64,000 nt of DNA from Saccharothrix syringae. GTDB lineage: Bacteria > Actinomycetota > Actinomycetes > Mycobacteriales > Pseudonocardiaceae. Position 1 is the first letter of the stretch. Every line of letters begins with the position of its first letter. Location: contig NZ_CP034550.1 of NCBI RefSeq assembly GCF_009498035.1, forward strand, positions 5,270,001-5,334,000, given 5' to 3'. The position numbers and the translations under genes were made by a program. A model generated the notes under the pieces. It was not told the DNA's origin. It did no database searches and saw only the letters and a program-made list of their open reading frames with translations. This document shows positions 1 through 16,406 of the stretch, in pieces.

Positions 1-708
1 GTTCCACGCGCCGAACACCGCGCACAGCGCGAACAGGCCGGGCGCGCCGCGCAGCCACGCCAGCCCGGCGCCGACGCCCGCGCGGTCGACGTCGCCGGCG
101 CCCGGCGGCCGCACGGCCTCCTCGGGCAGCCGCGCCACCAGCAGCGCGCCCACCGCGAACACCATCGACACCACGTCGACCAGCAGCACGCCGCGCAGCC
201 CCACCAGGCCCAGCAGCGCGCCGGCCACCAGCGGCGCGGCGATCTGCACGCCCTGGGTGACCTGCATGAACCCGTTGATCCGGCCCAGGTGCTCCTTGGG
301 CACCAGGGCGGGCACCAGCGCGGTGTAGGCGATGAGGTGGAAGGTGTTCAGCGTCGCGCTCAGCGCGGTGGCCGCGTACACCTGCCACACGGCCAGGCCG
401 CCGGTGGAGGCCGCGACCAGCAGCAGGGCGGTCACCGCGCCGCCGCCGAGGTCGGCGGCCAGCATGATCCGCCGCCGGTCGTGGCGGTCGGCGACCACGC
501 CCGCGTAGGGCGCGAGCAGGATGCCCGGCACCACCGCGCAGAACTGGATCAGCACGAACTGGGTCACCGAACCGGTGCCGGTGTAGACCCACACGCCGAG
601 CACGAACGCGGTCAGCGCGGACCCGATCACCGAGACCAGTTGGCCGCCCCAGACCACGGAGAACCGGCGCAGTCCCGGGTTCGGGGCGCGGTGCGGCTCC
701 GGGTTCAC
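1..708 (-). CDS. MFS exporter, 3' end outside window
   Basis: Membrane transporter of the major facilitator superfamily, likely the efflux pump for the product of the NRPS locus. The 236 visible residues begin with a short hydrophilic lead, then several hydrophobic helices and the conserved MFS loop between helices 2 and 3 (ADRHDRRR). This is the pattern of EntS-like/MFS_3 exporters. The GTG start at 706-708 overlaps the stop of the upstream NRPS as GTGA, so the two are translationally coupled and the gene is the last visible member of the leftward operon. About half of a normal 400-residue MFS protein is present; the rest lies beyond the left edge. The family is clear. The substrate is inferred from position only. 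Confidence 0.85.
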   Translation of the reverse strand, partial: MNPEPHRAPNPGLRRFSVVWGGQLVSVIGSALTAFVLGVWVYTGTGSVTQFVLIQFCAVVPGILLAPYAGVVADRHDRRRIMLAADLGGGAVTALLLVAASTGGLAVWQVYAATALSATLNTFHLIAYTALVPALVPKEHLGRINGFMQVTQGVQIAAPLVAGALLGLVGLRGVLLVDVVSMVFAVGALLVARLPEEAVRPPGAGDVDRAGVGAGLAWLRGAPGLFALCAVFGAWN

Positions 709-3700
709 CGGGCGGCCTCCCCGAGCATCGCCGCGACCTCGTCGGCCGACAGGCCGGCCAGCTGCTCGCGCAGCTCGGCGACCGCGGCCACCCGGCCCGG
801 CACGTCCTCCAGCGCGGCCAGCGCACCGGCCAGGCCCGCGACGGTCGGCGCGGCGAACAGCCGGCCGATCGGCACCGGCACCGAGAACGCGCCGTGCACC
901 CGGGCCAGCACCTTGGCCGCGAGCAGCGAGTGGCCGCCCAGCGCGAAGAAGTCGTCGTGCACGCCGACCTCCGGCACGCCCAGCACCTCGGTCCAGATCC
1001 CGGCCAGCACCCGCTCCACCGCGTCGCGCGGCGCGACCCGCTCGCCCTCGGCGGCCCACACCGGCGCGGGCAGCGCGGCGCGGTCGGTCTTGCCGTTGGG
1101 CGTGAGCGGGAACGCGTCGAGCACCACCGCGGTGGCGGGCAGCATGTAGTCGGGCAGCCGCTCGGCCAACCGCGCCCGCAACCGCGGCCACGGGACCTCC
1201 GCCGGCCCGTCCGGCACCAGGTAGGCGACCAGCCGGTCGTCGACCGCCTTCACCACCGCCTCGCGCACCTCGCCGGTGGCCAGCAGCGCGGCCTCCACCT
1301 CGCCCAGCTCGATGCGGAACCCGCGCACCTTCACCTGGTGGTCGGCGCGCCCCAGGAACTCCAGGGCGCCGTCGGCGCGGTGCCGGACCAGGTCGCCGGT
1401 CGCGTAGAGCCGCTGCCCGGGCCGCCGGGCGAACGGGTCGGGCACGAACCGCGACGCGGTCAGCCCCGGCCGGTCGTGGTAGCCGCGGGCCACGCCCGCA
1501 CCGCCGATGTGCAGCTCGCCGACCACGCCCGGCGGCACCGGTTCCATCCCCGGGCCCAGCACGTACAGGCGCGTGTTGCCGATCGGCGGCCCGAGCACCA
1601 CCGGCGCGGGGGAGGGCTCGACCAGCCCGGCGGAGGACCACACCGTGGTCTCGGTGGGCCCGTAGGCGTTCCACAGCAGCGCGTCGTCGGCCAGCAGGTC
1701 GTCGGCCAGGTCGCGGGGCAGCGCCTCGCCGCCGCAGATCCGCGTCACCACGCCCGCGGGCACGCCGCCGGCCGCGTGCAGCAGCCGCCACGTGGCCGGG
1801 GTCGCCTGGAGCGCGGTGACCTCGCGGTCGACCAGCAGCCGCCGCAGCGCCTCGCCGTCGCCGGCCACGTCGGCGGGCACCACCAGCACCTCGGCGGCGG
1901 CGGTCAGCGGCAGCAGCAGTTCCAGCACGGAGATGTCGAACGACAGCGTGGTCACCGCGGCCAACCGGTCCCGCGGGGTGAGCAGGAACAGCTCCTGGAA
2001 CGACACCAGCAGGTTGACCACGGCCCGGTGCGGCACGCCCACGCCCTTCGGCGTGCCGGTGGAGCCGGACGTGTAGATCACGTACGCCAGGTCCTCGCCG
2101 GTCGCCGGGCACGGCGCCGGGTCGGGTTCGCGGGCGTCGGCGTCGCCGGGGTGCAGCACCGCGCCGGCGAAGGCGAACCGGTCCCGGTCGGTGAGCAGCA
2201 CGGCCGCTCCGGAGTCGGCGAGCATCAGCGCCAGCCGGTCGGCGGGCCAGCCGGGGTCCAGCGGCACGTAGGCCGCGCCCGCCCGCCACACCCCGAGCAC
2301 CGCGGCCACCAGGTCGGGGGTGCGGGGCAGGCACAGCGCCACCGCCGAACCCCGGCCCACGCCGTGGGCGCGCAGCAGGGCCGCGTACCGCCGCGCCCGG
2401 ACGTCCAGTTCGGCGTAGGACAGCGCACCGTCCACACCGGACACCGCGGTGCCCTCGCCGGTGACCAGCTCCAGCGCGGTGGCCGCGGGCGGCAGCGGCA
2501 GGTCGGTGGCGTTGTTGCCCTCCAGGACCTGCCAGCGCCGCACGCCGGTGAGGCCGTCCAGCTCGCTGATCCGCCGGTGCGGCTCGCGCGCGGCGGCGGT
2601 GAGCAGGTCGACGAGCCGGTCGGTGAACTCGGCGACGGTGCCCTCGTCGAACAGGTCGGTGCTGTACTCGACGGCCAGGCCCAGCGCGTCGCCGCGCCGC
2701 TCGGCGGCCAGGGTGAGGTCGAACTTGGCCACGCCGGGATCGGGCACGATCGCCCGCACCCGGAGGCCGGGGAGCGACAGGCCCGCCGCCGGGGTGTTGG
2801 TGAGGATGAGCTGGGCCTGGTAGAGGGGCGCGTGGCCGGTGCTGCGGCGTGGCCGCAGGTGCTCCACCAGCCGCTCGAACGGCAGGTCGGCGTGCGCCAG
2901 GCCGGCCACGGTCACCGCGCGGACGTGCGCCAGCAGCTCGGCGAACGTCGGGTCGCCGCCCACCCGGGTGCGCAGCGCCAGGGTGTTGACGAAGAACCCG
3001 ACCAGGCCCTCCAGGTCCGGGTGGGACCGCCCGGCGACCGGCGTGCCGACCACCACGTCGTCCTGCCCGGCCAGCCTGCCGAGCCGGGCGGCGAACCCGG
3101 CCAGCAGCACCATGAACAGGGTGGCCCCGTGCTCCTGCGCCAGCCGCTCCAGCTCGGCCAGCTCCGGTGCCCCCACCCACGCCTCGCGCAGCGCGCCCCG
3201 GTGGCTCACCACGGCGGGCCGCGGCCGGTCGGTGGGCAGGGTCAGCAGCTCCGGCGCCCCGGCCAGGTGCCGCGTCCAGTACTCCAGGTGCTCCGCGGCC
3301 GCGGCGCCGGTCACCCGGTCGTGCTGCCACACCGCGAAGTCGTGGTAGTGCAGCTTCGGCGCGGGCAGGTCCGGGTCGGTGCCGCGCAGCGCCGCGTCGT
3401 AGGCCCGGCCCAGCTCGTCCAGCAGCACCGACAGCGACCATGCGTCGGAGGTGATGTGGTGCATGTTGAGCACCAGCACGTGGTCGTCGTCGGCCAGCCG
3501 GCCCAGGCTCGCCGCGAACAGCGGCCCCTGCCGCAGGTCGAAGCCGACGGCGCCGCGCTCGTCGGCGAACCGCTTGGCGGCGGCGTCGCGGTCGGGCGCG
3601 CCGGTCAGGTCGTGGGTGGTCAGGGTCGCGGTGCCGGTGGGCGCGACGAGCTGCACCGGCTCCCCGCCCGAGTCGGGGAACGTGGTGCGCAGCGCCGAGT

Positions 3701-3947
3701 GCCGGTTCACCAGGTAGTCCAGCGCGCGTTGCAGCGCCGCGGTGTCCGGCGCACCGCTCAGCCGCAGCCCGACCGGCACGTTGTAGACGGCGCCGCCGGG
3801 GGAGAACTTGTCCAGGAACCACAGCCGCTGCTGCCCGAACGACAGCGGGTAGGCGGTGGGGGTCGCGGCCCGCGCGCGCAGCCGCTGCGCCAGCAGCTCC
3901 CGCTTGCGGGCGGACGTGGTCGCGTCGGCGCCGGGTCCGTCGGTCAT
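705..3947 (-). CDS. NRPS, single module C-A-T (predicted glycine)
   Basis: Nonribosomal peptide synthetase of 1080 residues. The condensation domain occupies about residues 33-470 with the active-site motif HHITSDAW at 163-170. An adenylation domain follows (YTSGSTGTPKG, NAYGPTETT, YATGD, NGK). A carrier domain ends the protein with the phosphopantetheine serine in FFALGGHSLL at about residue 1007. No epimerase or thioesterase is present. Aligning by eye to GrsA, the specificity residues read D-I-L-Q-I-G-A-V-W-K, close to the published glycine code (DILQLGLIWK), so glycine is the best guess. The ATG start lies 1 base after the stop of the DUF6875-like gene. The domain order fits an internal or final module, but release would need a domain not seen here. 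Confidence 0.95.
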   Translation of the reverse strand: MTDGPGADATTSARKRELLAQRLRARAATPTAYPLSFGQQRLWFLDKFSPGGAVYNVPVGLRLSGAPDTAALQRALDYLVNRHSALRTTFPDSGGEPVQLVAPTGTATLTTHDLTGAPDRDAAAKRFADERGAVGFDLRQGPLFAASLGRLADDDHVLVLNMHHITSDAWSLSVLLDELGRAYDAALRGTDPDLPAPKLHYHDFAVWQHDRVTGAAAAEHLEYWTRHLAGAPELLTLPTDRPRPAVVSHRGALREAWVGAPELAELERLAQEHGATLFMVLLAGFAARLGRLAGQDDVVVGTPVAGRSHPDLEGLVGFFVNTLALRTRVGGDPTFAELLAHVRAVTVAGLAHADLPFERLVEHLRPRRSTGHAPLYQAQLILTNTPAAGLSLPGLRVRAIVPDPGVAKFDLTLAAERRGDALGLAVEYSTDLFDEGTVAEFTDRLVDLLTAAAREPHRRISELDGLTGVRRWQVLEGNNATDLPLPPAATALELVTGEGTAVSGVDGALSYAELDVRARRYAALLRAHGVGRGSAVALCLPRTPDLVAAVLGVWRAGAAYVPLDPGWPADRLALMLADSGAAVLLTDRDRFAFAGAVLHPGDADAREPDPAPCPATGEDLAYVIYTSGSTGTPKGVGVPHRAVVNLLVSFQELFLLTPRDRLAAVTTLSFDISVLELLLPLTAAAEVLVVPADVAGDGEALRRLLVDREVTALQATPATWRLLHAAGGVPAGVVTRICGGEALPRDLADDLLADDALLWNAYGPTETTVWSSAGLVEPSPAPVVLGPPIGNTRLYVLGPGMEPVPPGVVGELHIGGAGVARGYHDRPGLTASRFVPDPFARRPGQRLYATGDLVRHRADGALEFLGRADHQVKVRGFRIELGEVEAALLATGEVREAVVKAVDDRLVAYLVPDGPAEVPWPRLRARLAERLPDYMLPATAVVLDAFPLTPNGKTDRAALPAPVWAAEGERVAPRDAVERVLAGIWTEVLGVPEVGVHDDFFALGGHSLLAAKVLARVHGAFSVPVPIGRLFAAPTVAGLAGALAALEDVPGRVAAVAELREQLAGLSADEVAAMLGEAAR

Positions 3948-3948
3948 G

Positions 3949-4620
3949 TCAGCTCCCGGAGGTCGCGAGTCGGTCGGCCGCGGCGCGCACGTGCTCGCGC
4001 AGGTGCGCGGGCACGCGGTCGCCGAACCGCTGGAGGTAGGCGGCGACGGTGTCGTCGTCGTCGCGCAGGAACGGGAAGTCGGTCGGCACCATGTGCCGGA
4101 TCGCCAGCAGCGGCACCGGGCTGTGCAGCGGGCGGAACTCCGGGTTCCACAGGCCGCCCTTCTGCGGCGGACCGGGGTGGAACTCGCCGAGCATCAGCCC
4201 GTCGCGGGTGTAGTCCGGTTTCAGCGCCCGCTGCGCCCGGTCGACCACGTCGAACCCGGTCAGCTCGGGGAACAGCACCAGGATGGTCTTGAACTGCGCG
4301 CCCGGCCCGGTGCGCGGTTCGAGCAGGCCGAACCAGTCGCGGTAGTCCAGCAGCAGCGCGGCCAGCTCCTCGACGCCCGCGGGCCGCCCGGGGTGCACCG
4401 AGAGGTAGAACAGGCCCCGCTGCAGCGAGGTGTCGGTGAACGGGCAGACCGCGCCGCGCCTGCCCAGGTCGGGGTGCGGTCCGCACAGGTACTCGTCGGC
4501 CCAGGCGAACACGGTGCGCAACGCGGTCTCGTGCGCCGCGACCGCGTCGGGCAGGGCGGGCGCGGCGAAGTCCGCCGGCTCGACCAGCGGGAACGCCCGG
4601 CGGTGGGGGTGGATCAGCAT
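3949..4620 (-). CDS. DUF6875-like protein in NRPS operon
   Basis: A 223-residue soluble protein of unknown function that I recognise as resembling the DUF6875 family, which recurs beside NRPS genes in actinomycetes. Visible landmarks are a GRRGAVCPFTDTSL stretch near residue 55 and a GEFHPGPP motif near residue 145, both conserved-looking Cys/Pro- and His-rich loops; there is no signal peptide or membrane segment. The ATG directly abuts the stop of the kynurenine-monooxygenase-like gene, and the next NRPS begins 1 base after its stop, so it is certainly part of this operon. A tailoring or scaffold role is likely from context, but no reaction can be named. Confidence 0.8.
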   Translation of the reverse strand: MLIHPHRRAFPLVEPADFAAPALPDAVAAHETALRTVFAWADEYLCGPHPDLGRRGAVCPFTDTSLQRGLFYLSVHPGRPAGVEELAALLLDYRDWFGLLEPRTGPGAQFKTILVLFPELTGFDVVDRAQRALKPDYTRDGLMLGEFHPGPPQKGGLWNPEFRPLHSPVPLLAIRHMVPTDFPFLRDDDDTVAAYLQRFGDRVPAHLREHVRAAADRLATSGS

Positions 4621-5976
4621 TCAGTTCACCTGTTTCCTGCAACGCCCGCGGATCAGGGTCGCCAGCGCCGTGCCGGCCAGCGCGGCGCCCGCCAGCCCCA
4701 CGCCGGCGGCGCCGAGCAGGCGGTCCTGGCGGCGGGACCGGGCCAGCGCCTCGCCGTAGGGGACGGTGGTGTGCGCGATCAGCGTGTAGAGCGGCACCCA
4801 TGCGTCGGGGAACAACCGGTGCAGCGCCAGGTCCGCCTGCTTGCGGACCAGGAACAGCGGTGAGCGCAGCTTGTCGCGCAGCTCGACGAAGTTGCGCTTG
4901 GACAGCTCGGCGAGCACGTCGGTGTGCGGCCTGCGGGCGGCCTCGAACGCGGCCAGCGCGCCCGGCAGGTCGCCCGGGTGGGCGGCCAGGCACCGGTCGA
5001 GCACCGAGCAGTCCTCGAACGCGGCGTTCATGCCCTGCCCGAAGAACGGGTAGACCGCGTGCGCGGCGTCGCCGACCAGCACCACGCCGCGGCCCTCGTC
5101 GGTGGTGACGTGCCAGGGCGCGGTGCGCACGGTGACCAGGCTCGCCGCCTCGTGGTCCAGGAACTGCTCCACCACGTCCGGGATGAGGGTGAGCGTGTCG
5201 GGGAAGCGGCGGGCGAAGAACGCCCGCACCTTCGCGGGCTCGGTGAGCCCGGCGAACCCGTGCTCGCCCGCGAAGGGCAGGAACACCGTGGCGGTCAGCG
5301 AGCCGTCCGCGTTGGGGTGCGCCACGATCAGCCCGTCGTCGCCCGGCCACACGTGCAGCGCGCGCAGCTCGGTGCGCGGCCGCCCGTCGTCGCCGACGGG
5401 GATCAGCAGCTCCTTGTAACCCCACTCCAGGAACTCCTGGTGCAGGTCCACCCGCAGGCCGCGACCGAGGTGGGTGCGCACGGCGGAGAACGCGCCGTCC
5501 GCGCCGACCACGAGGTCGGCGGTGTGCACCTCCGCGCCACCCGGCCCGGTGGCGGTGACCGCGGGCTTGGCCCGGTCCACCGCGGTGACCCGGTGGCCCC
5601 AGCGGAACTCCACGCCCAGGCGCTCGGCCTCGTCGACCAGGGCGACGTTGAGGTCGTGGCGCAGCACGGAGTGCAGGATCTGGTCCTCGGCCAGGCCGTA
5701 GGGCTGGAACCGCAGCCCGTCGGGCAGGTGCACCACGCGGCCGCGCATGGGCACGGTCAGCGGGCGCAGCCGGTCGAGCAGGCCGACCTCCCGCAGCGCC
5801 ACGATGCCGCGCTGCGACAGGCCCAGGTTGATCGAGCGGCCCTGCTCGCGGACACCGGGCGTGCGCGGGTCGCCGCGCCGCTCCAGCACCTTCACCGCGA
5901 AGCCCCGCCGCGCCAGGTAGACCGCGGTGAGCGAACCGGCCAGGCCCGCCCCGGCGACCAGCGCCTGCCCGCTCAC
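4621..5976 (-). CDS. Kynurenine 3-monooxygenase-like FAD hydroxylase
   Basis: A 451-residue class A flavoprotein hydroxylase. The N-terminus carries the FAD-binding GxGxxG fold (VAGAGLAGS), followed by the signature GRSINLGLSQRG, which is characteristic of kynurenine 3-monooxygenase rather than of phenol or aromatic polyketide hydroxylases. The second FAD motif is VLVGDAAHAVYPFFGQG. The C-terminus ends in a hydrophobic segment and then basic residues, a plausible membrane anchor like that of KMO proteins. KMO uses NADPH and O2 to convert kynurenine to 3-hydroxykynurenine, a unit used in several NRPS pathways. The GTG start at 5974-5976 overlaps the stop of the preceding NRPS (GTGA). No tryptophan dioxygenase or kynurenine formamidase gene is in the window, so the true substrate could be a carrier-bound aromatic instead. 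Confidence 0.85.
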   Translation of the reverse strand: MSGQALVAGAGLAGSLTAVYLARRGFAVKVLERRGDPRTPGVREQGRSINLGLSQRGIVALREVGLLDRLRPLTVPMRGRVVHLPDGLRFQPYGLAEDQILHSVLRHDLNVALVDEAERLGVEFRWGHRVTAVDRAKPAVTATGPGGAEVHTADLVVGADGAFSAVRTHLGRGLRVDLHQEFLEWGYKELLIPVGDDGRPRTELRALHVWPGDDGLIVAHPNADGSLTATVFLPFAGEHGFAGLTEPAKVRAFFARRFPDTLTLIPDVVEQFLDHEAASLVTVRTAPWHVTTDEGRGVVLVGDAAHAVYPFFGQGMNAAFEDCSVLDRCLAAHPGDLPGALAAFEAARRPHTDVLAELSKRNFVELRDKLRSPLFLVRKQADLALHRLFPDAWVPLYTLIAHTTVPYGEALARSRRQDRLLGAAGVGLAGAALAGTALATLIRGRCRKQVN

Positions 5977-8900
5977 GCCAGGTCCCCGTCGTCGACCATG
6001 GTGCCCAGCAGGCGGTCGACCTCCTCGTCGGACAGCTCGTCGAGCTGGTCCAGCAGCGGCACCGGGCCGCGCGCGGCCGGGCCCCGCTGGAGGTTCGCGC
6101 ACAGCTCGGCGATGGTCGGCGCGGCGAACAGCGTGGCCAGCGGCAGGTCCGCGGCCAGCGCGGTGCGGACCCGGGCCAGCATCTGGGTGGCGGTCAGCGA
6201 GTGGCCGCCCAGGGCGAAGAAGTTGTCGTGCACGCCCAGCGGGGCGTCCGCGGGCAGGCTCAGCACCTCGCGCCAGATCAACGCCATCCGCCGCTCGGTG
6301 TCGTCGCGCGGCTCGACCCGCTCGACGGCCTCGGTGGTCCACACCGGCTCGGGCAGCGCGTCCCGGTCGACCTTGCCGGTGCCGGTGCGCGGCAGCTCCG
6401 CCAGCACGACGACGGTGGCCGGGAGCATGTACTCGGGCAGGTTCGCGGCCAGGTGCGGCCGCACCCGGGCCCTCAGCTCGCTGTCGGGCAGGGCCGGGTC
6501 GGCGGGCACCGCGTAGGCGACCAGCCGCACGTCCGCGGCGTGCGCGGACCAGGCGACCACGACCGCCTGCGCCACGTCCGGGTGCGACCGCAGCACGGCC
6601 TCGACCTCGCCGGGCTCGATGCGGTAGCCGCGGATCTTGAGCTGCCGGTCCGCCCGGCCCAGGAACTCCAGCCGCCCGTCGACGTGCCGCCGGACCAGGT
6701 CGCCGGAGGCGTAGAGCCGCCCACCCGGCGCGGTGCCGAACGGGTCGGGCCGGAACCGGTCGGCGGTCAGCCCCGGCAGGCCGTGGTAGCCGCGGGCGAC
6801 CCCCGCGCCGCCGATGTGCAGCTCGCCGATCACGCCCGGCGGCACCGGCCGCATCAGCGGGTCCAGCACGTGCAGCGAGGTGCCCCGGACCGCCGGGCCC
6901 AGCCGCACCGGCCCCGGCGCGGGCGCGACGGCGCCGGCCGCCGAGTACACCGTGGTCTCGGTGGGCCCGTAGCCGTCGACGAGGGTGGCGCCGTCGCGCT
7001 GGAGGTCGTCGGCCAGGTCGCGGGTCATCGCCTCGCCGCCGCTGACGCGCAGCCGCACGTGGGCGGGCACGCCACCGGCCGCGACGACCATCCGCCAGCT
7101 CGCCGGGCCGCCCTGCACGACCGTGGCGCGGCTCTCGGCGATGCGGGTGCGCAGCAGCGCGCCGTCCGCCACGTCGTCGGCGGGCAGCACGACCAGCGCG
7201 GCGCCGGTGATCAGGGGTGCCAGCATCTCCACCGCGGACACGTCGAACGCGGGGGTGGTGATGGAGGCCAGCCGGTCGTCCGGGCCCAGGCCGGTCAGCT
7301 CGACCATCGCCCGCAGCAGCGCGGCCAGGCCGCCCTGGGTGCAGCGCACGCCCTTGGGCGCGCCGGTGGAGCCGGAGGTGTGGATGACGTAGGCCAGGCC
7401 GTCCGGGTGCTGGGGGACGGCGGGGGGAGGGGTGTCCGGCTGGGAGCCGAGGTCGGCGGTGTCCAGGTCGACCTCGGTCCACGGGCCGGTCAGCGGGCCG
7501 GTGGTCGCGCGGGCCGCGCCGTCGGTGACCAGCACCGGGACTTCGGAGCCGGTGGCCATGGCGGTCAGGCGCGCGGCCGGCCAGGTCGGGTCCAGCGGCA
7601 GGTAGCCGGCGCCCGCCTTCCACGCGGCCAGCAGGCCGACCAGGACGGCCGGGCCGCGGTCCAGGCACAGGGCGACCGGGCGGTCGGGCGCCGCGCCCGC
7701 GGCCAGCAGCACGTGGGCCAGGCGGTTGGCGGCGCGGTCGAGCTCGCCGCGGGTGAGGGAGGTGGCGGTCGGGGTGCGGGGAGCGGAGACACCCGAGGCC
7801 GCCTCGCCCGGCGTTGCCCCGGCGGGAGCCGGTGCGCCGCGAGTCGGCCCCCCGTGCGGCGGGAAGCCCTCGATCGCGGGCCGGTCCGGGTCCCGCGCCA
7901 GCGCCCCGATCACCAGGTCGGCGGCGGTCTCCCGGGGCACCTCCACCGCGTGCTCCTGCGGCGAGCCGCCGGTCAGCGGCAGCTCGGCCACCAGGTCGCC
8001 GGGATCGGCGTGCACCGCGGTGGCGAAGATCGCGTGCAGGTTGGCCACGGTGGCGGGCTCGAACAGCTCGCTGTCGTACTGCCAGCGCGCGTACCAGCCG
8101 TCGGGGGCCCGCTCGACGGTCAGCGACAGGTCGAACTTGGCCCCGCCGTTGGCCACCGCCTCCGGGGCGAAGGTCACCGGACCGGCCTCGCGCGGCGGCG
8201 GCACCGGCTCGACCGCGAACATCACCTGCACCAGCGGCGCGTGCGCCAGCGTCCGCTGCGGTGCGACGAGGTCGACCAGCCGCTCGAACGGCAGTTCCTG
8301 ATGCGCCAACGCGGCCACGGTCGCCGCCTCGGCCGCCGCGACCACGTCGCCCAGGGTGGTGCCCGGCGTGATCGTCGCGCGCAGCGGCAGGGTGTTGGCC
8401 ACGAACCCGACCAGGCCCTCGGTCTCCGGCCGGGTGCGGGCGGCCACGGGCGTGGCGACCAGGAAGTCCGCCTGGCCGGTCACCCGGTGCAGCACGCACT
8501 GGAACACCGCCAGCAACCGGGCGAACGACCCGTCCGGCACCTCCAGCGTTGCCCGCAGCTCCGCGCCGCGACCGGTCGGTGCGGCGGGCCGGGCGCGGTC
8601 GGCGGGCAGGGACAGCACGGTCGGTGCGCCGTGCAGCGCCCGCCGCCAGTGCGCGGCGTCGGCCTCGAACGCACCACCGTCGACCTGCTCCAGTTGCCAC
8701 ACCGCGTAGTCCGGGTACTGCACGGGCAGCTCCGGCAGGTCGGCGGGCTCGCCGCCCACCTCGGCCGCGTAGAGGTGGGCCAGCTCGTCGAACAGCACCG
8801 CGCACGACCAGCCGTCGGCGACGGTGTGGTGCAGCACGAGCACCAGCACCGGTCCGTTTTCGTCGCGGGGCGGGCTGGGACGCGGCGTCAGCCCGTCCTC

Positions 8901-9344
8901 GCCGCGCGCCGGGGCGGCATCCGGTGCCGGTCCGCCCTCGCCGTCCGGTGCTGGTCCGTCCTCGCCGCGCACCAGGGTGGCGCGCAGCAGCGGCCCCTCG
9001 TGCAGCGCGAACGGCCTGCCGACCTCCTCGCGCACGGCCGCCTCGACGTCCGCGACCCGGGCGCGCCGCAGCGGCACGGTCAGCGCGGCCGACACGACCT
9101 GCACCGGTACGCCGTCCTCGGCGGCGAACCGGGTGCGCAGCGCCTCGTGCCGGGCGACCAGCCCGCCCAGCGCCCGCTCCAGCGCGTCCTCGTCCACCGG
9201 CCCGGTCAGGCCGACGCGCCAGCCGATGTTGTAGACCGGGCTCGCCGGCAGCAGCTGGTCGACCAGCCACAGCCTGCGCTGCCCGGACGACGCCGGGAAC
9301 AGGAACACCTCGTCCGCCCGGTCCTCCGGAATCACCGCGCTCAT
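5973..9344 (-). CDS. NRPS, single module C-A-T with low-complexity insertions
   Basis: An NRPS of 1123 residues. The condensation domain spans about 12-450 with HHTVADGW at 172-179. The adenylation domain contains HTSGSTGAPKG, DGYGPTETT, YASGD and a C-terminal GTGKVDR lysine motif. The carrier domain has its serine in FFALGGHSLT at about residue 1049. By-eye specificity residues are D-V-V-Q-V-G-G-V-Y-K, which match no code I recognise, so the substrate is left open. Two insertions not expected in the family are visible: residues 126-164 inside the C domain just before the catalytic histidines, and a Gly/Pro/Ala-rich stretch before the LTRGELDRAANRLA motif of the A domain. The ATG overlaps the previous gene's stop (ATGA). 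Confidence 0.95.
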   Translation of the reverse strand: MSAVIPEDRADEVFLFPASSGQRRLWLVDQLLPASPVYNIGWRVGLTGPVDEDALERALGGLVARHEALRTRFAAEDGVPVQVVSAALTVPLRRARVADVEAAVREEVGRPFALHEGPLLRATLVRGEDGPAPDGEGGPAPDAAPARGEDGLTPRPSPPRDENGPVLVLVLHHTVADGWSCAVLFDELAHLYAAEVGGEPADLPELPVQYPDYAVWQLEQVDGGAFEADAAHWRRALHGAPTVLSLPADRARPAAPTGRGAELRATLEVPDGSFARLLAVFQCVLHRVTGQADFLVATPVAARTRPETEGLVGFVANTLPLRATITPGTTLGDVVAAAEAATVAALAHQELPFERLVDLVAPQRTLAHAPLVQVMFAVEPVPPPREAGPVTFAPEAVANGGAKFDLSLTVERAPDGWYARWQYDSELFEPATVANLHAIFATAVHADPGDLVAELPLTGGSPQEHAVEVPRETAADLVIGALARDPDRPAIEGFPPHGGPTRGAPAPAGATPGEAASGVSAPRTPTATSLTRGELDRAANRLAHVLLAAGAAPDRPVALCLDRGPAVLVGLLAAWKAGAGYLPLDPTWPAARLTAMATGSEVPVLVTDGAARATTGPLTGPWTEVDLDTADLGSQPDTPPPAVPQHPDGLAYVIHTSGSTGAPKGVRCTQGGLAALLRAMVELTGLGPDDRLASITTPAFDVSAVEMLAPLITGAALVVLPADDVADGALLRTRIAESRATVVQGGPASWRMVVAAGGVPAHVRLRVSGGEAMTRDLADDLQRDGATLVDGYGPTETTVYSAAGAVAPAPGPVRLGPAVRGTSLHVLDPLMRPVPPGVIGELHIGGAGVARGYHGLPGLTADRFRPDPFGTAPGGRLYASGDLVRRHVDGRLEFLGRADRQLKIRGYRIEPGEVEAVLRSHPDVAQAVVVAWSAHAADVRLVAYAVPADPALPDSELRARVRPHLAANLPEYMLPATVVVLAELPRTGTGKVDRDALPEPVWTTEAVERVEPRDDTERRMALIWREVLSLPADAPLGVHDNFFALGGHSLTATQMLARVRTALAADLPLATLFAAPTIAELCANLQRGPAARGPVPLLDQLDELSDEEVDRLLGTMVDDGDLA
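7755..7862 (-). repeat. Gly/Pro/Ala-rich insertion at N-terminus of NRPS A domain
   Basis: About 35 low-complexity residues rich in Gly, Pro, Ala and Thr lie between the start of the adenylation domain and the LTRGELD motif. The homologous region of the other NRPS proteins here goes directly from a short acidic loop to the same motif. No clean period is visible, so it is listed as low-complexity sequence rather than a tandem array. Confidence 0.5.
8853..8969 (-). repeat. Repeat-built insertion in NRPS condensation domain
   Basis: This stretch encodes residues 126-164 of the second NRPS (Gly/Pro/Asp-rich, with GGPAPD/DGPAPD units). The DNA contains two near-identical 24-base copies (around 8912-8960) differing at two positions. 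It interrupts the strand that leads into the catalytic HHTVADGW motif, where ordinary C domains have a loop of only a few residues. Being in frame, it appears tolerated. Confidence 0.7.
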
Positions 9345-12300
9345 CGCGCTCCTCCCCCCGCAGTCGTCGTGTCGCCGTGCTCGGACCGGCCGCGCCGGTC
9401 CACCGCCACCACCCGGAACTCCGCGGTGTGCCGCGCGCCGCGCGCGTCGGTCAACCACAGCCCGTCCGGGTCGGGCAGCATCTCGCCCACGCCCATGGGC
9501 GCCTCCGGTTTCTCCCGGTCCAGCGCCCGCACCGCGTGCGCGAACAGCTCGACCGACGGCCGGCTGGCCAGGTCCACGTAGAACGGTTTGTGCTCCACCG
9601 GGCTCTTCACGAACAGGAACCGCGGCATGCCGTGCTCCCGGCGCCACGCCTGCGCCCCCAGGAAGCGCGTGGTCTCGTCGGCGGCGAACGCGAACCCGCA
9701 CCGCGAACTCGGCAGCCGCCAGCCCTCGCGGGCCACCACGAGCCGGTCCAGGCTCACCCGCGGCGTGTGCTCGCCCGCGGGCAGCAGCCGGAAGTGCTGC
9801 ACCAGCTGCGCCATGACCTGCTCGTTCAGCAGCTCCACCAGGTCCAGGTCGACCCGGCCGTCCCGGCTGCGCGCCACCAGCCGCCCGCCGACCTCGACCA
9901 CGTCGCAGTCGCCCACCGGCACCGCGCCGCGCAGGCCCGGGCCGCAGGCGTCGTGCCCGGACACGATCTTCAGGTCGCCGGGCAGCACGAGCGCGTCGGC
10001 CAGCCGCTGCGGCGTGCCGCCCTCCTCGCGGGTGGTGGCGAGCACGACGCGGGGCCCGTTCATGTCCCGGCCCATCGCGGTGCGCAGTTGTTCGGGGTCG
10101 GGGTGCTGGGAGACGAACAGGGCCGAGCGCATGGTGTTCACGCCGGGGTGCACCTCGCCCAGCACCCACCGGTAGTCGCCGTCGCAGATGGCCTGCTCGT
10201 CGCGGGCGGCGATGAGCACGTCCGGACTGTGCTGCACGGCGCCGCGCCAGCCCGGGCGGGGCGCGGCGAACTCCCGCAACACCGCGGCACGCACGTCGGC
10301 CACCCGGTGGTGCACCTCCCAGGCGCCCGAGGCGTGACTGTTTGGCCGGTGGCTGCCTGGCGCGTGGCCGTCTGGCCGGTGGCCGTCCAGCCCGTGAGCG
10401 CCTGGCCCGTGACCGTCCGCCGCATGGCGGCCAAATCCGTGGCCACTCAGCTCGTGACCACCCAGCGCCCGGGCCCAGCGCTCCTGCAGTGCGCCGACCA
10501 GGCGCCGGACCAGCCGCTCGTCGAGCCGGAAGATGGTGTCGTTGGCCCACAGCCAGAAGTCGGCCAGGCTCACCCGCTCGTCACCGGTGGCGGCCACCCG
10601 CCGCCGGTAGACCTCGCGCAGCGCGCGCCCGTACAGCGCGGCACCGGCGGAGGTGTACCAACGCGCCGCCTCCAGCACCAGCGACAGCGGCGACCACAGC
10701 GTTTCCAGCAGCGAGGGGGAGAGGGTGACGTCCAGGTCGCGACGGCACTCCTCGTGCACCACGGTCCGCCCGGCGTAGAACAGGCCGGGCCTGCGCACCG
10801 CGGCGGTGCCGGTGACGGCGGTGAACCGCTCGTGCAGGTCCTCGACCGCCCGCACCAGCCGGTCGGGGTCGCCGACCGCGTCACGCACGGCGTCCCGGCC
10901 GTCCTCGATCGAGGCCAGCGCCCGTTCGGCACCGGCGCGCGCCTCGTCGTCCCCGATGGCCGCGATCTGCTGCCGCAGCGAGGTCTCGGGCACCAGCGCC
11001 TCCGGCGGCACCTCCAGCGTCCAGGCGATCCGCTTGGCCCGCCGGAGCCGGTCCAGCGCGGCGAACACCTCCGGTTCGGGACGGCCGAGGGCGGCGGCGA
11101 TGGCGTGGGCGCCGGTCAGCCCGTCGCAGGCGGCGAGCACGGCGGCGTCGAGCGGGGGCAGCCGCACCGGGTCGGCCATCGGGACGTGCACGGTGTCGCC
11201 CTCGACCCGCACGAACGGCATCCGCCGGGGCACCGCCCACGGCCGCACCTCGTCGGTGGTCAGCGCTTCGGCCACCTGTTGGACGGCCCAGTTCTCCAGG
11301 TAGGTGGTGCGCGAGGCGATCAGGTCGGGGCCGGGCGCGGTGGTGATCGCGGCGGGTGCGTCGTCCACTACCCGTGCCCATCCCACGGGGCCGAAGAAGC
11401 CGATGGTGTCGTTCTTCGCGCAGTAGCGCTGGAGGTAGCTCACCGCGGTGTGCTCCCAGCGGCGGTAGTCGACGTTGCGCGTGGCGGGTCGGTCGCCGGA
11501 CAGGGCGCGCTGCAGTGTGCGGTGGAGTGCGTCGACTGCGGTTTGCAGGGCGCGGGGGTTCTGCCAGGCGACGGCCTCGCGGAACTTGGGGTCACCGCTG
11601 ACCTCGCGCAACACCTCGGCCACCGCCCGACCACCCTGCTCGAAGCGGTCGGCGTAAGCGGCGAGCAACGCGTTGTGCCGAGCATCGGCATCGGCCGCAG
11701 CCGCCAGCGCAGCGTCTACCTCGGCAATGTCAACATCAGAGATATCGGCTCCGGCAATGTCAACATTGGCGATGTCAACATTGGCGATGTCGACATCAGA
11801 GATGTTGACATCAGAGATGTTGACATCGGTGAGATCGGCTCCGGCGCTGCCCGCACGATCGGAACCCGCAATGTCAACATTCGACATCTCTACATTCGCG
11901 CGGTTGATGTGGTTGACATTCGCGTGGTCGGCATTCGCGTGGTCGGCGCTCGCGTGGTCGGCGCTCGTGTGCTCCGTGATCGCGTACTTGGCCTTGGCGG
12001 TACTCGCGTTGGCGATCCTGGCCAATGCCTCCCGGGCCTCGGTGAACCGTCCTTTGCGCACCAGCCGTCCGATGCGGCGCAGCGCCGACCGCTGCTCACC
12101 TCGCGCCCGGTCCTCGACCTCGCGCAGCACGCGGAACGCCGCCCACCGCGCGGCCCCCACCTCGTCCTCCGCTTCCAAAGCCTCCTCGGCGGCCCGTGCC
12201 GAGGCCGGATCGGCCAACGCCAGCAGCGGTTCGATGCCGAACCCCGTGGCGCGCAGCTCGACCCACCGCCACGCCGCCCAGTTCCCGTCATCAGGCAGCA

Positions 12301-15300
12301 CCAGGTGGTCGGCCACCGCTGCGGTCCGCTGCGCGGGCACCCGGTAGGCCGACCGGTCGCGTCGGGTGATCCCCGCCGACACCTGGCGCCGTGCACCGTT
12401 CAGCGCAGAGCTGTTGTTCGCCGCGGGACTGCCGTCAACCGCAGGACTGCCATCGATCGCAGAACTACCGACCGCGGAACCGCCGCCCACCGCAGGACCG
12501 CCAACCAAGGAGCCGTCGGCCACAGAACCACCGGCCAGAGAACCACCGGCCAGAGCGCTTTCGGCCAGACACCCATCGATCACCTCCGCGCAGCCGGCCA
12601 AGGTCCGCGCCCGGTGCAGCGCCGCGACCGGCACCTCCACCCCGAACTCCTCACGCACCCGGAACACCAACCGCACAGCCAGCAACGAGTTGCCGCCCAC
12701 CGCGAAGAAGTCGTCCTCCGCCCACACCTCGGCCACGTCCAGCAACCGCCGCCACAGCCGCGCCAACCGCCGCTGCACACCGGTCGCCGGCGGCGTCCGG
12801 TCCGTGCCCCGCGCGCCCGGGGCACGGACCGTGCGCAGCGCCGCCCGGTCCACCTTGCCGCTGCGGTTCAGCGGCAACTCCGGCAGCGGTGCGTACCGCG
12901 CCGGGCACAGGTAGGCGGGCAGCCGTTCCGCGACGTGCGCGCGGACGTCCTCCACGTCAAACGCCCCCGCGTCAAACGCCTCTACGTCAAACGCCTCTAC
13001 GTCAAACGCCTCTACGTCAAACGCCTCTACGTCAAAAGCCCCGGCGGGCACCACGTACGCCACCAGGTGCCGCGCATCGCCATCACCGACCGGCAGCACG
13101 GCCGCCTCAGCGACGGCCGGGTGCTCGCGCAGCACCGCCTCCACCTCGGCCGGCTCGACCAGGAACCCGCGCACCTTCACCTGCTGGTCCGCGCGCCCCA
13201 GGAACTCCAGCACCCCGTCGGGCCGCCACCGCGCCAGGTCACCGGTCCGGTACAGCCGCCCACCGGGGGCCCCGAACGGGTCGGGCACGAACCTCGCCGC
13301 GGTCAGGCCGGGCGCGGCCAGGTAGCCGCGCGCCAGCCCGTCACCACCGGTGTACAGCTCACCGGGCACGCCGACCGGCACCGGCCGCATCTCCTCGTCG
13401 AGCACGTACACCGTGCTGCGCTGCACCGGCGTCCCGATGGGCACGGTCTGGCCGACCTGGTCGGCCGAGGTCATCACGTGGCACGCCGTGAACGTGGTGT
13501 TCTCCGTCGGCCCGTACCCGTTGACCAGCGGCTTGCCGCCGCGGGCCGCCAGCGCCGCGCGCACCGCGGCCGGCGCGAGCACGTCACCGCCCGCCAGCAG
13601 CTGCCCGACGCCCGCGAGCACGTCCACGTCGAGCGCCACGAGCTGGTGGAACAGCCCGGCGGTCAACCACAGCACGTCCACCCGGTGCTCCCGCAGCAAC
13701 CCGGCCAGCACCGCCGGGTCCACCGGCCCCTCGGGCGCGGGCACCACCCGACCGCCGGTCAGCAGCGCGCCCCACACCTCCAGCGTGGTCAGGTCGAACG
13801 CGGTCGCCGACAGGTGCAGCAGCGTCCGCCCCGGCCCGAGCAGCGCGAACGAGGGCCGGGTCACCAGTCGCACCACGCCCCGGTGCGGCACCGCGACGCC
13901 CTTGGGCCTGCCGGTCGAGCCGGACGTGTAGTTGACGTAGGCCAGGCCCAGCGGGTGCGCCGGCACCGCGTCGAACGCAGGCCCGCCGGAAGTGTCCACA
14001 TCGGACACCACCACGCCGCTCACCCCGTCGGGCAGCGGGCGCGGCCGGTCGACGACCACCAGCGTCGCGCCGGACTCCCGCAGCGCCGCCGCCTCCCGCG
14101 CGGCCGGGTTGGCCGGGTCCAGCGGCAGGTACGCGGCCCCGGTCTTGAGCACCGCCAGCATCGCGGTCACCAGCCCCGCGCCGCGCGGCAGCGCCAACCC
14201 CACCGGTCGGTCCGGCACGGCGCCCCGCGCCACCAGCTCGTGCGCCAGCCGGTCCGACCGCCGGTCCAGCTCCGCGTAGCTCAGCCACCGCCCGCCGTCG
14301 AACACCGCGTCCGCGTCGGGTCGCGCCCGCACCTGCTCGGCGAACAGCGCGGGCACGGTGGCGTCGGCGGGGAAGTCGACCGCCGTGTCGTTCCAGCGCT
14401 CCAGCACGCGCACCCGCTCGGCGCCGCGCGGCCGGGTCAGCTCCCGCACCGGCCGGTCCGGCGCCTCGGCCATGCCCGTGACCAGGTCGCGCACCCGCGC
14501 CAGCAGCGCGTCGGGCGCCCACGCCGGGAAGCGGCCGGTGTCGTGGATGAGCTGGAAGCTCAGGCGCGGCTCGGCGAACGCGTACAGGGTCAGGGCGTAG
14601 CCGGGGGTGCGCAGGATGCGCACCCGCCTGCCGGGCGGCGCGGACGGCCGGGAGGCCAGCACCGCGCCCAGTTCCCGGTGCTCGAACAGCACCAGGCTGC
14701 GCATCAGCGGCGCGTCGTGGCCGGCGGCGCGCTGGATGACCGGCAGCGGGCACAGCTGGTGGTCCCGCGCGGCCACCGAGCGCTCCCGCACCGACCGCAG
14801 CCAGTCCACCACCGACGCGTCCCGGTCCACCGGCAGCCGCAGCGGCACCGTGGCCAGCAGCAGGCCCAGCATGTCGTGCGCGCCCTCGACGGTGCCGTGC
14901 CGCGCGGCCCGGGTCACCCCGAACACGGCCTCGTCGGCCTGCCCGTGCACGGCCAGCACCAGGCCCCACGCGGCGAGCACGACGGTGTTGACCGTGACGC
15001 CCGCCTCCGCGGCCAGCGCCCGCACGGCCCCGGTCTCCGCGTCGGTCAGCCCGGTGCCCGCGGTGGCCATGACCGGTGTGCCCGGCCCGGCGTGCTCCAG
15101 TGGCAGCGGACCGGGCTCGGGCAGCCCGGCCAGCTCGGCGCGCCAGAACCGCTCCTCGTCCGGCGCGGTCCGGGCGTCGTACCAGCGGGCGTAGTCGGCG
15201 AAGTCCGGGCGCGGCGCGAACTCCGGCGCACCGCCCGAGAGGCGCGCCGCGTAGTCGTCGTCGATCTCGGCCAGCAGCATCGCCAGCGACCGGCCGTCCA

Positions 15301-15703
15301 GGATCGCGTGGTGGAAGGTCGTCACCACCACGTCCCCCGGCAGCGCCACCACCCGCAGCGGCGGCGCGGCCACCGGGTCGACGCCCGAGCGCCGGTCGGC
15401 GGCCAGGAACGCGTCGAGGTCGGTGACCGAGTCGTCCGCCAGCACCGGCACGTCCGCGGCGGGCCCGGCCCACTGCTCCAGGCCGCCGTCGGCCCGCCAG
15501 GTGAAGCGGGTGCGCAGCAGCGGGTGCCGTTCGACCGCCGCCCGCCACGCCGCGAGGTAGGCGGCGGTGTCCAGGCCCCCCGGCCAGTGCTGCACGCATT
15601 GGATGACGTCCGTCCCGGCCGCCGGGTCGCGCAAACCGGCCGCGATCATCCCGCTCTGCAGCGGCAGTGCGGGCGCGGGTCGTGACAACGATTCCGTGGG
15701 CAC
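9341..15703 (-). CDS. NRPS module (C-A-T) fused to a LanB-like dehydratase/PEARL-type domain
   Basis: A 2120-residue fusion protein. Residues 1-430 form a condensation domain (HHAILDG at 131-137). An adenylation domain follows with YTSGSTGRPKG, NGYGPTENTT and YRTGD, and the carrier domain has its serine in FFAVGGNSLL near residue 1007. After a repetitive linker, residues about 1105-2120 match the N-terminal domain of class I lantibiotic dehydratases: VAWQNPRAL, RYCAKNDTIGFFGPVGW, and near the end RFLFVKSPVEHKPFYVD and EMLPDPDGLWLTD. That domain transfers amino acids from aminoacyl-tRNA in LanB and PEARL enzymes; no LanB C-terminal elimination domain is seen. By-eye specificity residues are D-L-L-W-L-G-G-T-F-K, unassigned. 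The GTG start at 15701-15703 follows a GGGAGAGG ribosome site; an upstream GTG at 15749-15751 lacks one. Four 15-bp-period repeat tracts interrupt the protein. Confidence 0.9.
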   Translation of the reverse strand: MPTESLSRPAPALPLQSGMIAAGLRDPAAGTDVIQCVQHWPGGLDTAAYLAAWRAAVERHPLLRTRFTWRADGGLEQWAGPAADVPVLADDSVTDLDAFLAADRRSGVDPVAAPPLRVVALPGDVVVTTFHHAILDGRSLAMLLAEIDDDYAARLSGGAPEFAPRPDFADYARWYDARTAPDEERFWRAELAGLPEPGPLPLEHAGPGTPVMATAGTGLTDAETGAVRALAAEAGVTVNTVVLAAWGLVLAVHGQADEAVFGVTRAARHGTVEGAHDMLGLLLATVPLRLPVDRDASVVDWLRSVRERSVAARDHQLCPLPVIQRAAGHDAPLMRSLVLFEHRELGAVLASRPSAPPGRRVRILRTPGYALTLYAFAEPRLSFQLIHDTGRFPAWAPDALLARVRDLVTGMAEAPDRPVRELTRPRGAERVRVLERWNDTAVDFPADATVPALFAEQVRARPDADAVFDGGRWLSYAELDRRSDRLAHELVARGAVPDRPVGLALPRGAGLVTAMLAVLKTGAAYLPLDPANPAAREAAALRESGATLVVVDRPRPLPDGVSGVVVSDVDTSGGPAFDAVPAHPLGLAYVNYTSGSTGRPKGVAVPHRGVVRLVTRPSFALLGPGRTLLHLSATAFDLTTLEVWGALLTGGRVVPAPEGPVDPAVLAGLLREHRVDVLWLTAGLFHQLVALDVDVLAGVGQLLAGGDVLAPAAVRAALAARGGKPLVNGYGPTENTTFTACHVMTSADQVGQTVPIGTPVQRSTVYVLDEEMRPVPVGVPGELYTGGDGLARGYLAAPGLTAARFVPDPFGAPGGRLYRTGDLARWRPDGVLEFLGRADQQVKVRGFLVEPAEVEAVLREHPAVAEAAVLPVGDGDARHLVAYVVPAGAFDVEAFDVEAFDVEAFDVEAFDAGAFDVEDVRAHVAERLPAYLCPARYAPLPELPLNRSGKVDRAALRTVRAPGARGTDRTPPATGVQRRLARLWRRLLDVAEVWAEDDFFAVGGNSLLAVRLVFRVREEFGVEVPVAALHRARTLAGCAEVIDGCLAESALAGGSLAGGSVADGSLVGGPAVGGGSAVGSSAIDGSPAVDGSPAANNSSALNGARRQVSAGITRRDRSAYRVPAQRTAAVADHLVLPDDGNWAAWRWVELRATGFGIEPLLALADPASARAAEEALEAEDEVGAARWAAFRVLREVEDRARGEQRSALRRIGRLVRKGRFTEAREALARIANASTAKAKYAITEHTSADHASADHANADHANVNHINRANVEMSNVDIAGSDRAGSAGADLTDVNISDVNISDVDIANVDIANVDIAGADISDVDIAEVDAALAAAADADARHNALLAAYADRFEQGGRAVAEVLREVSGDPKFREAVAWQNPRALQTAVDALHRTLQRALSGDRPATRNVDYRRWEHTAVSYLQRYCAKNDTIGFFGPVGWARVVDDAPAAITTAPGPDLIASRTTYLENWAVQQVAEALTTDEVRPWAVPRRMPFVRVEGDTVHVPMADPVRLPPLDAAVLAACDGLTGAHAIAAALGRPEPEVFAALDRLRRAKRIAWTLEVPPEALVPETSLRQQIAAIGDDEARAGAERALASIEDGRDAVRDAVGDPDRLVRAVEDLHERFTAVTGTAAVRRPGLFYAGRTVVHEECRRDLDVTLSPSLLETLWSPLSLVLEAARWYTSAGAALYGRALREVYRRRVAATGDERVSLADFWLWANDTIFRLDERLVRRLVGALQERWARALGGHELSGHGFGRHAADGHGPGAHGLDGHRPDGHAPGSHRPNSHASGAWEVHHRVADVRAAVLREFAAPRPGWRGAVQHSPDVLIAARDEQAICDGDYRWVLGEVHPGVNTMRSALFVSQHPDPEQLRTAMGRDMNGPRVVLATTREEGGTPQRLADALVLPGDLKIVSGHDACGPGLRGAVPVGDCDVVEVGGRLVARSRDGRVDLDLVELLNEQVMAQLVQHFRLLPAGEHTPRVSLDRLVVAREGWRLPSSRCGFAFAADETTRFLGAQAWRREHGMPRFLFVKSPVEHKPFYVDLASRPSVELFAHAVRALDREKPEAPMGVGEMLPDPDGLWLTDARGARHTAEFRVVAVDRRGRSEHGDTTTAGGGAR
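10334..10468 (-). repeat. Tandem repeat, nine 15-bp units (His/Gly pentapeptides)
   Basis: Units begin at 10334, 10349, 10364, 10379, 10394, 10409, 10424, 10439 and 10454, each starting GTG or ATG on the plus strand. They encode pentapeptides of the form G-H-x-x-G/S, giving a histidine-rich loop at about residues 1746-1790 of the fusion protein, inside the LanB-like domain. The period is exactly five codons, so unit gain or loss would not shift the frame. Confidence 0.9.
11719..11985 (-). repeat. Degenerate 15-bp tandem repeat (pentapeptide tract) in LanB-like domain
   Basis: A run of about 17 five-codon units encoding variants of S-D-V-D-I, A-N-V-D-I and A-N-A-D-H, at about residues 1240-1328 of the fusion protein. 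Several units share the 11-mer AATGTCAACAT on the plus strand. The tract is markedly AT-richer than the surrounding gene and uses codons (AAT, GTT, ATT) that are rare elsewhere in it. The residue pattern resembles pentapeptide-repeat sequences, but there are too few units to be sure of a beta-helix. Confidence 0.9.
12422..12567 (-). repeat. 15-bp-period repeat in the carrier/LanB linker
   Basis: About nine units of 15 bases (a few of 18) encode G-S-x-x-G-like pentapeptides (for example GGSLA, GSVAD, GSLVG) between the carrier domain and the LanB-like domain. This is the flexible tether of the fusion, around residues 1046-1094. On the plus strand the last units share AGAGAACCACCGGCC. Confidence 0.85.
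12954..13038 (-). repeat. Near-perfect 15-bp tandem repeat in A domain C-terminal region
   Basis: The 15-mer GTCAAACGCCTCTAC occurs as four consecutive perfect copies (12971-13030), flanked by diverged copies. It encodes repeated F-D-V-E-A at about residues 889-917, in the C-terminal subdomain of the adenylation domain before the ERLPAYLCPARY segment. The perfect identity suggests recent expansion. Confidence 0.95.
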
Positions 15704-15839
15704 CGGATCCTCTCCCGTCCGAGGTGTTCCGGGCGCGCTGGAAAGGACCACCGGAAAATATCCGGCAGTCTATTGGGCGCACCACGGACGCGCCCGTGCG
15801 GAACGGGCGCTGGTGAATTTGGCGAGGAAGGTCCGGAGG

Positions 15840-16055: not shown

Positions 16056-16406
16056 GGTCGTACTCCATGCCCTTGGCGGATGTGGGCGGTTGACGTGGAG
16101 GGCCACGCTACGCGGCGGTTGTCGCCATTCGGAATCCACTGAACGGTCGAATCGGTCATAAGGGGGACCTCGGGCGGGTTATCAAGTGGTCCTATTGGCT
16201 GTAGCGGCGCGTGTTCGATCGGTTACCGGACCGTTTCCGGATGGCGACCGGAGAAACTTTTGCAACCTATGGAGTCCGCCGAAAGCAGTCATGATCGTTG
16301 GGCTGTCCGGATATCTGGATCGGTTTTCCGCCGTTCTCGCAACCGGGTGTGCACGCAGGGTTATCGGGGCGCTAGGGTCCTGTCCGGTCGGCGAGGAGGG
16401 GCGCTG
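16056..16406. promoter_or_regulatory. Divergent intergenic region between NRPS operon and Hsp90-like gene
   Basis: 351 bases with no supported gene, which must hold promoters for the leftward MbtH-NRPS operon and for the rightward Hsp90-like gene. It is less GC-rich than the flanking genes around 16140-16350. A TAGGGT hexamer at 16374-16379, about 28 bases before the rightward start, is a possible -10 element, but no good -35 accompanies it. No clear operator palindrome was found. Confidence 0.4.

Follow-up and report, generated by a model that had tools for sequence, protein, structure and literature searches.

A nonribosomal peptide synthetase module fused to a PEARL-type LanB domain in a conserved eight-gene cluster of Saccharothrix syringae

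We analyzed a stretch of 64,000 nucleotides (nt) of the Saccharothrix syringae genome (contig NZ_CP034550.1, positions 5,270,001 to 5,334,000; the window). One gene in it joins a nonribosomal peptide synthetase (NRPS) module to a LanB-like domain. The minus-strand frame from 15751 to 9341 encodes 2136 residues, with condensation (C), adenylation (A) and thiolation (T) domains followed by the LanB-like part. The modelled fold and the conserved residues support assignment of this part to the peptide aminoacyl-tRNA ligases (PEARLs) rather than to the dehydratases. The fused gene belongs to a conserved eight-gene cluster; this location, the grouping of C-, A- or T-fused PEARLs in one clade and the exchange of the N-terminal C domain for an A-T-Curea unit in one lineage are new here. 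We propose, with just under even confidence, that it encodes the opening module of an NRPS with four modules, in which the PEARL domain lengthens the T1-bound starter at a free carboxylate, against the NRPS direction.

Pfam placed Condensation at residues 26-441, AMP-binding at 470-811, AMP-binding_C at 869-966 and PP-binding at 995-1056, the A domain thus spanning 470-966. All three NRPS domains scored above their cut-offs, as befits an NRPS elongation module. Lant_dehydr_N matched at 77.9 bits (cut-off 28) in two stretches, the best at 1388-1687, within a LanB-like part running from ∼1151 to 2136. The landmarks named in the original prediction, RYCAKNDTIGFFGPVGW and VEHKPFYVD, were both present in the translation. 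That prediction, made from the DNA letters, had also described one uninterrupted C-A-T and LanB-like frame and called for a profile search; both were borne out, with the frame on the minus strand. The plus strand at its coordinates, 9341..15703, reads nothing like the fused gene.

Scoring 7984 candidates against the LanB part yielded 84 proteins, the named ones being from Saccharothrix, Actinosynnema, Actinophytocola, Micromonospora and other genera; in 79 of the 84, Pfam recognized all four domain types (C, A, T and LanB). We fetched 78 loci from other genomes, and 15 encode C-A-T-LanB in a single frame (L020 is cut at its start by a contig end). L026 encodes A-T-C-A-T-LanB. A contig end truncates the A-T-LanB frame of L025, and in L013 the gene is broken between A and T. 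Because the fusion recurs in these relatives and in other genomes, it is neither a chance event nor an assembly join, the error that could have overturned the original prediction.

A wider search (best 120 of 350 matches) was combined with the first to give 201 proteins. LanB stood alone in 97, and 72 were C-A-T-LanB, with three more in which LanB was split over three hits and one C-C-A-T-LanB. The rest comprised 12 A-T-LanB, 8 C-LanB, 3 A-T-C-A-T-LanB, 1 T-C-A-T-LanB, 3 T-LanB and 1 LanB-LanB. Some short architectures may be fragments, as P0153 (C-LanB) is. Lant_dehydr_N was not found by Pfam (E 0.001) in the C-LanB proteins P0086 and P0087, whose LanB part was recognized by our own profile and the LanB-part search. 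P0196, P0199 and P0201 have an N-terminal thioesterase fused to LanB. Among plasmids, 13 records had LanB-like proteins, none covering 80% of the query. In a Myxococcales locus (L035:9647-22141), four LanB-like frames lie close together, one cut by the locus end, and our own profiles found no NRPS domain there. Eight loci (L038, L039, L044, L046, L053, L057, L062, L069) have two to three adjoining LanB-like frames after an A-T gene, followed in seven of them by an A-T-C-T gene with motif xHHAVFDG (L039 is cut).

The predicted model of the LanB part matched TbtB, MibB and NisB, in line with the structural check suggested at the outset. When an alignment of LanB parts was searched against PDB sequences, it matched TbtB and GodF, with chance matches below. 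D1844, E1866, H1868, E2111 and R2113 are counterparts of ATP-site residues diagnostic of PEARLs, which, like the CCA contacts, we took from the available text of PMC11117183 and PMC11962472. These counterparts are conserved in 200–202 of 202 alignment rows, this protein included. D1844 (202 rows), E2111 (201) and R2113 (200) correspond to Asp542, Glu801 and Arg803 of TglB, as placed by spacing and via TbtB, TglB itself being outside the alignment. Y1439 and R1442, kept in all 202 rows, correspond by spacing to Y205 and R208 of BhaB7 (also outside the alignment), which contact the tRNA CCA end. Three LanB-like proteins of the same genome share these two residues, so they do not distinguish PEARLs. 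Four other LanB-like proteins of this genome aligned poorly toward the C terminus and were excluded from the counts. By eye, the position two residues past the Glu holds Ala and Val in one LanB-like protein of this genome and MibB. NisB, MibB and TbtB share the glutamylation-domain fold; here, in contrast, the PEARL Asp/Arg are present and an elimination domain is not. PF14028, the elimination domain, was absent from the seven cluster proteins scanned, the fused one among them, and from the MFS counterpart. LanC was not among the eight cluster proteins (no search was made further out), which agrees with the original prediction. No scaffold peptide was seen among the eight cluster genes (short frames were not searched).

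The original estimate of about 1000 residues for the LanB-like domain was too high, because tandem repeats, some within this part, lengthen the protein. They are also the reason that it exceeds its nearest relative among the 84 proteins, P0004 (1932 residues), by ∼200 residues. The repeats, mostly 15-nt units, are in frame at window positions 10343-10417, 11714-11985, 12421-12555 and 12949-13040, with inserts at the end of the A domain, in the linker and in PEARL-domain loops. None of 12 other loci scanned showed these units. In L016 and L018, arrays of different units (9 and 12 nt) occupy a comparable position in the LanB-like part, which suggests a site liable to expansion. One of the arrays here resembles pentapeptide-repeat proteins, and owing to the repeats this strain's LanB region matched mainly such proteins among PDB sequences.

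Partnership between a PEARL-like enzyme and an NRPS is known from separate proteins; the function of the joined form is our proposal only. As Yu and van der Donk showed in 2024 (PMC11212132), the separate PEARL-like enzyme SnaE works with an NRPS in the threopeptin cluster of Stackebrandtia nassauensis. As here, a LanB-like protein is encoded with an NRPS; no precursor peptide accompanies SnaE, and none was seen among the eight genes here. Curea joins two arginines head to head, and SnaE is needed for addition of Thr to the carboxylate thereby freed; SnaE lengthens the chain at a free carboxylate, against the NRPS direction (PMC11212132). The evidence came from heterologous expression, gene inactivation and product structures; the authors inferred the aminoacyl-tRNA step and left open an action of SnaE on released compounds (PMC11212132). 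Whereas SnaE is a separate protein acting after Curea, our domain is fused behind C-A-T and its partner C domain is not Curea. The same paper mentions, in one sentence, LanB-like proteins fused to thiolation or thioesterase domains. Our protein fits this description, for which the available text gives no architecture, cluster or function. TglB, AmmB and BhaB (PMC11962472, PMC11117183, PMC12945691) have the diagnostic ATP and CCA residues whose counterparts occur here, but they extend a ribosomal carrier peptide, and the available text tells of no NRPS fusion. In a 2026 review of aminoacyl-tRNA enzymes, the main text lacks the words NRPS, fused and fusion (PMC12945691). Apart from PMC11212132 and its preprint PMC10769383, we found no literature on LanB-like proteins in NRPS clusters in a search that left most subscription papers outside.

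Seen against this literature, the original ideas fared unevenly. The view that no characterised example exists fits what we found, although T- and thioesterase-fused LanB-like proteins were already in print (PMC11212132, as available). A tethered tRNA-dependent ligase is well founded in fold and residues, yet not new in kind, given SnaE and its NRPS. Extension or capping of a carrier-bound peptide has become less plausible, because a PEARL activates a free carboxylate, which the thioester end is not, and SnaE works against the NRPS direction.

Trees were used to place the fused forms. In a LanB tree of 115 rows (thinned from 289 at 66% identity), all rows fused to C, A or T fell in one clade of 25 (SH-aLRT 100). 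Five rows inside it were called LanB alone and are possibly fragments; the thioesterase-fused P0196 was placed elsewhere. The nearest rows outside include L021, in which the LanB-like gene adjoins a separate C1-type module. A second tree, of 49 rows, had its midpoint root inside the fused forms; in it the Curea forms P0072, P0074, P0076, P0083 and L026 again nested among C1-type C-A-T-LanB and C-LanB proteins (9 rows, support 99). In an A1 tree (41 rows), the five Curea rows form a clade of their own (100), nested in a clade of 11 rows (99). In one lineage, therefore, A-T-Curea took the place of C1 ahead of an unchanged A1-T1-PEARL cassette.

In a thinned C-domain tree (108 rows), C1 rows with L021 and L029 (44-row fork, 97) lay apart from Curea (7-row fork, 99). 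In this tree the C2 domains encoded downstream of either kind formed one group (8 rows, 99). The Curea motif EHHxxHDG occurs in 8 of the 78 related loci. It is not found in this cluster, where C1 to C4 read FHHAILDG, LHHTVADG, HHITSDA and HHIVCDD; the last two replace HHxxxDG (window 705-3947; L007:14941-19371). Ureido formation by C1 was dropped as the default reading, since C1 lacks the motif and lies outside the Curea clade. Among solved structures, C1 best matched McyB and PvdL, which is not decisive for its type. From the best 120 of 1096 C1 relatives, we took the 60 best single C domains among 87 newly fetched proteins. Two of them were in LanB fusions. The other 58 were at most 39% identical, with 28 at a protein start, 28 after another C-like domain and two after T, which does not name the donor of C1. 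The commonest A1 codes in the 72 C-A-T-LanB proteins were DLLWLGGTFK (26) and DALWLGGTFK (25), with variants; the latter also occurs in the second A domain of 3/3 A-T-C-A-T-LanB proteins. We take both to be aliphatic, Val-like codes; Arg domains of SnaA, too, were predicted hydrophobic by two programs (PMC11212132). Genes near other family members had no common theme: L065 has an adjoining MenC/NSAR-family enzyme, L021 a lone A domain, and L022 (4248-5891) an AMP ligase directly before its C-A-T-LanB gene, with diazotase AvaA6 as best NCBIfam match, below cut-off.

A junction motif, typically I-x-R-R-D-R-S-A-Y-R-V, lies at most 360 residues before the LanB core, after the T domain or, in C-LanB, directly after the C domain. 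It was found in 52/75 C-A-T-LanB, 11/12 A-T-LanB, 3/3 A-T-C-A-T-LanB, 6/8 C-LanB and 3/3 T-LanB proteins, but in neither the T-C-A-T-LanB (0/1) nor the C-C-A-T-LanB protein (0/1), versus 5/98 standalone proteins and 16/1680 shuffles.

We propose the following sequence of events. C1 would acylate the amino acid loaded onto T1 by A1, delivering a group that bears a carboxylate. With ATP, the tethered PEARL would phosphorylate this free carboxylate on the acylated, T1-bound starter, and the amino group of an aminoacyl-tRNA, whichever it may be, would displace the phosphate. Hydrolysis would then remove the tRNA, and the chain would have gained one residue at the end out of NRPS reach. The thioester end would be handed from T1 to C2. 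The product would be a short, reductively released, probably tryptophan-containing peptide. Reverse extension appears most likely because the Curea version of the fusion is a close relative, and Curea is the source of SnaE's free carboxylate.

Several observations weigh against this proposal. C1 belongs to another clade than Curea and carries FHHAILDG; the one origin of a free carboxylate described in the literature is therefore missing here. No dicarboxylic-starter gene was seen among the eight cluster genes. A1, presumably aliphatic, predicts no side-chain carboxylate. C-LanB proteins without A-T exist (8/201, one a fragment), so T1 need not share a chain with the PEARL. And the search for conserved tRNA contacts gave a divided answer: the Tyr and Arg counterparts are invariant, but Gln201 of BhaB7 has no conserved counterpart in the 202-row alignment.

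The fusion might simply keep enzymes together, with the PEARL acting once the product has been released, or on a free small molecule before it enters the line. We consider this unlikely, but a serious contender. SnaE may itself act on released compounds (PMC11212132), standalone relatives are common (97/201), and L021 keeps a separate LanB-like gene beside a C1-type module. Yet one fused clade has been retained across genera, and the junction motif is frequent in C-A-T-LanB and C-LanB proteins but not in standalone ones or shuffles. A less probable scheme has tRNA as the starter carrier: the PEARL would join a free acid to aminoacyl-tRNA, and C1 would take the resulting acyl-aminoacyl-tRNA ester as its donor, giving acyl-aa-aa1-S-T1. 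If so, the first residue would be drawn from ribosomal currency with neither adenylation domain nor thioester involved, and tRNA would replace the first carrier domain. All four modules start with C, no upstream carrier was seen in the cluster, and C1 and PEARL stay joined when A-T is absent, as this scheme would have it. However, C domains are not known to accept ester donors on tRNA, and A-T-LanB proteins lack C altogether (12/201, some maybe cut by contig ends). Known PEARLs, moreover, hydrolyse the tRNA off (PMC12945691, available part).

Two further readings are less likely still. The domain shares its fold with the TbtB, MibB and NisB glutamylation domains, and might transfer glutamyl to Ser/Thr for dehydration of a carrier-bound residue. 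This is very improbable: PF14028 is missing from the protein and the cluster proteins scanned, and the PEARL-specific Asp and Arg counterparts are present in 202 and 200 of 202 rows, whereas one LanB-like protein of the genome and MibB read Ala and Val at the site two residues past the Glu. That the domain is an inactive relic with a structural role, as the in-frame repeats at several sites of the gene might hint, is harder still to credit, given the conservation of its catalytic residues in 200–202 of 202 rows. The model's two long low-confidence stretches, for their part, are the repeat inserts.

The other cluster genes follow on the same strand (Table 1), in the order C1-A1-T1-PEARL, C2-A2-T2, FAD monooxygenase, DUF6875, C3-A3-T3, MFS, C4-A4-T4-reductase, O-methyltransferase.

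Table 1. Features of the fused gene and its cluster (window positions unless preceded by L007)
Feature	Position	Strand	Remarks
Fused gene C1-A1-T1-PEARL	9341..15751	(-)	2136 aa from first GTG of frame; true start maybe slightly downstream; 84 homologues
C1, N-terminal condensation domain	14429..15676	(-)	Pfam and C-domain tree; FHHAILDG, not Curea EHHxxHDG
A1, adenylation domain	12854..14344	(-)	Pfam; specificity code by script DLLWLGGTFK
T1, thiolation (carrier) domain	12584..12769	(-)	Pfam; GGNSL serine
Junction motif ITRRDRSAYRV	12338..12370	(-)	Links carrier to PEARL domain; common among fused proteins
PEARL-type LanB domain, residues 1151-2136	9341..12301	(-)	Modelled fold and residue counterparts
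NRPS module C2-A2-T2	5973..9344	(-)	4-nt overlap with end of fused gene
FAD monooxygenase	4621..5976	(-)	Best NCBIfam match VioC, below its cut-off
DUF6875 protein	3949..4620	(-)	Pfam and model
NRPS module C3-A3-T3	705..3947	(-)	Motif HHITSDA
MFS transporter, 5' part	1..708	(-)	Rest at L007:19368-20000; MFS by 85% identical counterpart in L012
C4-A4-T4-reductase NRPS	L007:14941-19371	(-)	Left of window
O-methyltransferase	L007:13954-14937	(-)	Left of window

The FAD enzyme and DUF6875 genes recur in 13 other loci (L009-L020 and L024), including Salinispora and Micromonospora. All six relatives with downstream DNA (L087-L092) have counterparts of the C4-A4-T4-reductase (63–84% identical; reductase domain checked in two, L087 and L088) and of the methyltransferase (59–76%). 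DUF6875 matches of at least 70% identity occur in 17 of 25 same-genus genomes, our own included. The DUF6875 model (pLDDT 92.5) had only a weak best PDB match (E 0.0016, TM 0.36), to AglA, which we take to be a heme enzyme. The available text of PMC13307353 describes the family as heme-binding tryptophan oxidases, and in one pathway mutants of a DUF6875 gene and of a methyltransferase gene share a phenotype. Taken with the methyltransferase and reductase release, these reports make it probable that the product contains an oxidised, O-methylated tryptophan unit and leaves the assembly line as an aldehyde or alcohol.

Beside the cluster, the plus strand at 16260-20087 encodes a 1275-residue protein with an iHD-CE/HD-CE and five wHTH-Hsp90-associated Pfam stretches, and no PADLOC family match. 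A tRNA-Ala gene lies 7.5 kb past the cluster end (L007, 6330-6421) and a tRNA-Thr gene at window position 37710; L008, L010, L012, L018, L019, L024, L093 and L094 have no tRNA genes.

These data place an aminoacyl-tRNA-type ligase and an assembly-line module in one chain, within a cluster kept by related actinobacteria. The swap of C1 for A-T-Curea in one clade means that the origin of the free carboxylate could be tested with two natural versions of the enzyme. If the domain works as we propose, it would offer a compact system for studying how a PEARL chooses a nonribosomal substrate, whether it acts on a carrier-bound one, and how an NRPS chain may grow in two directions.

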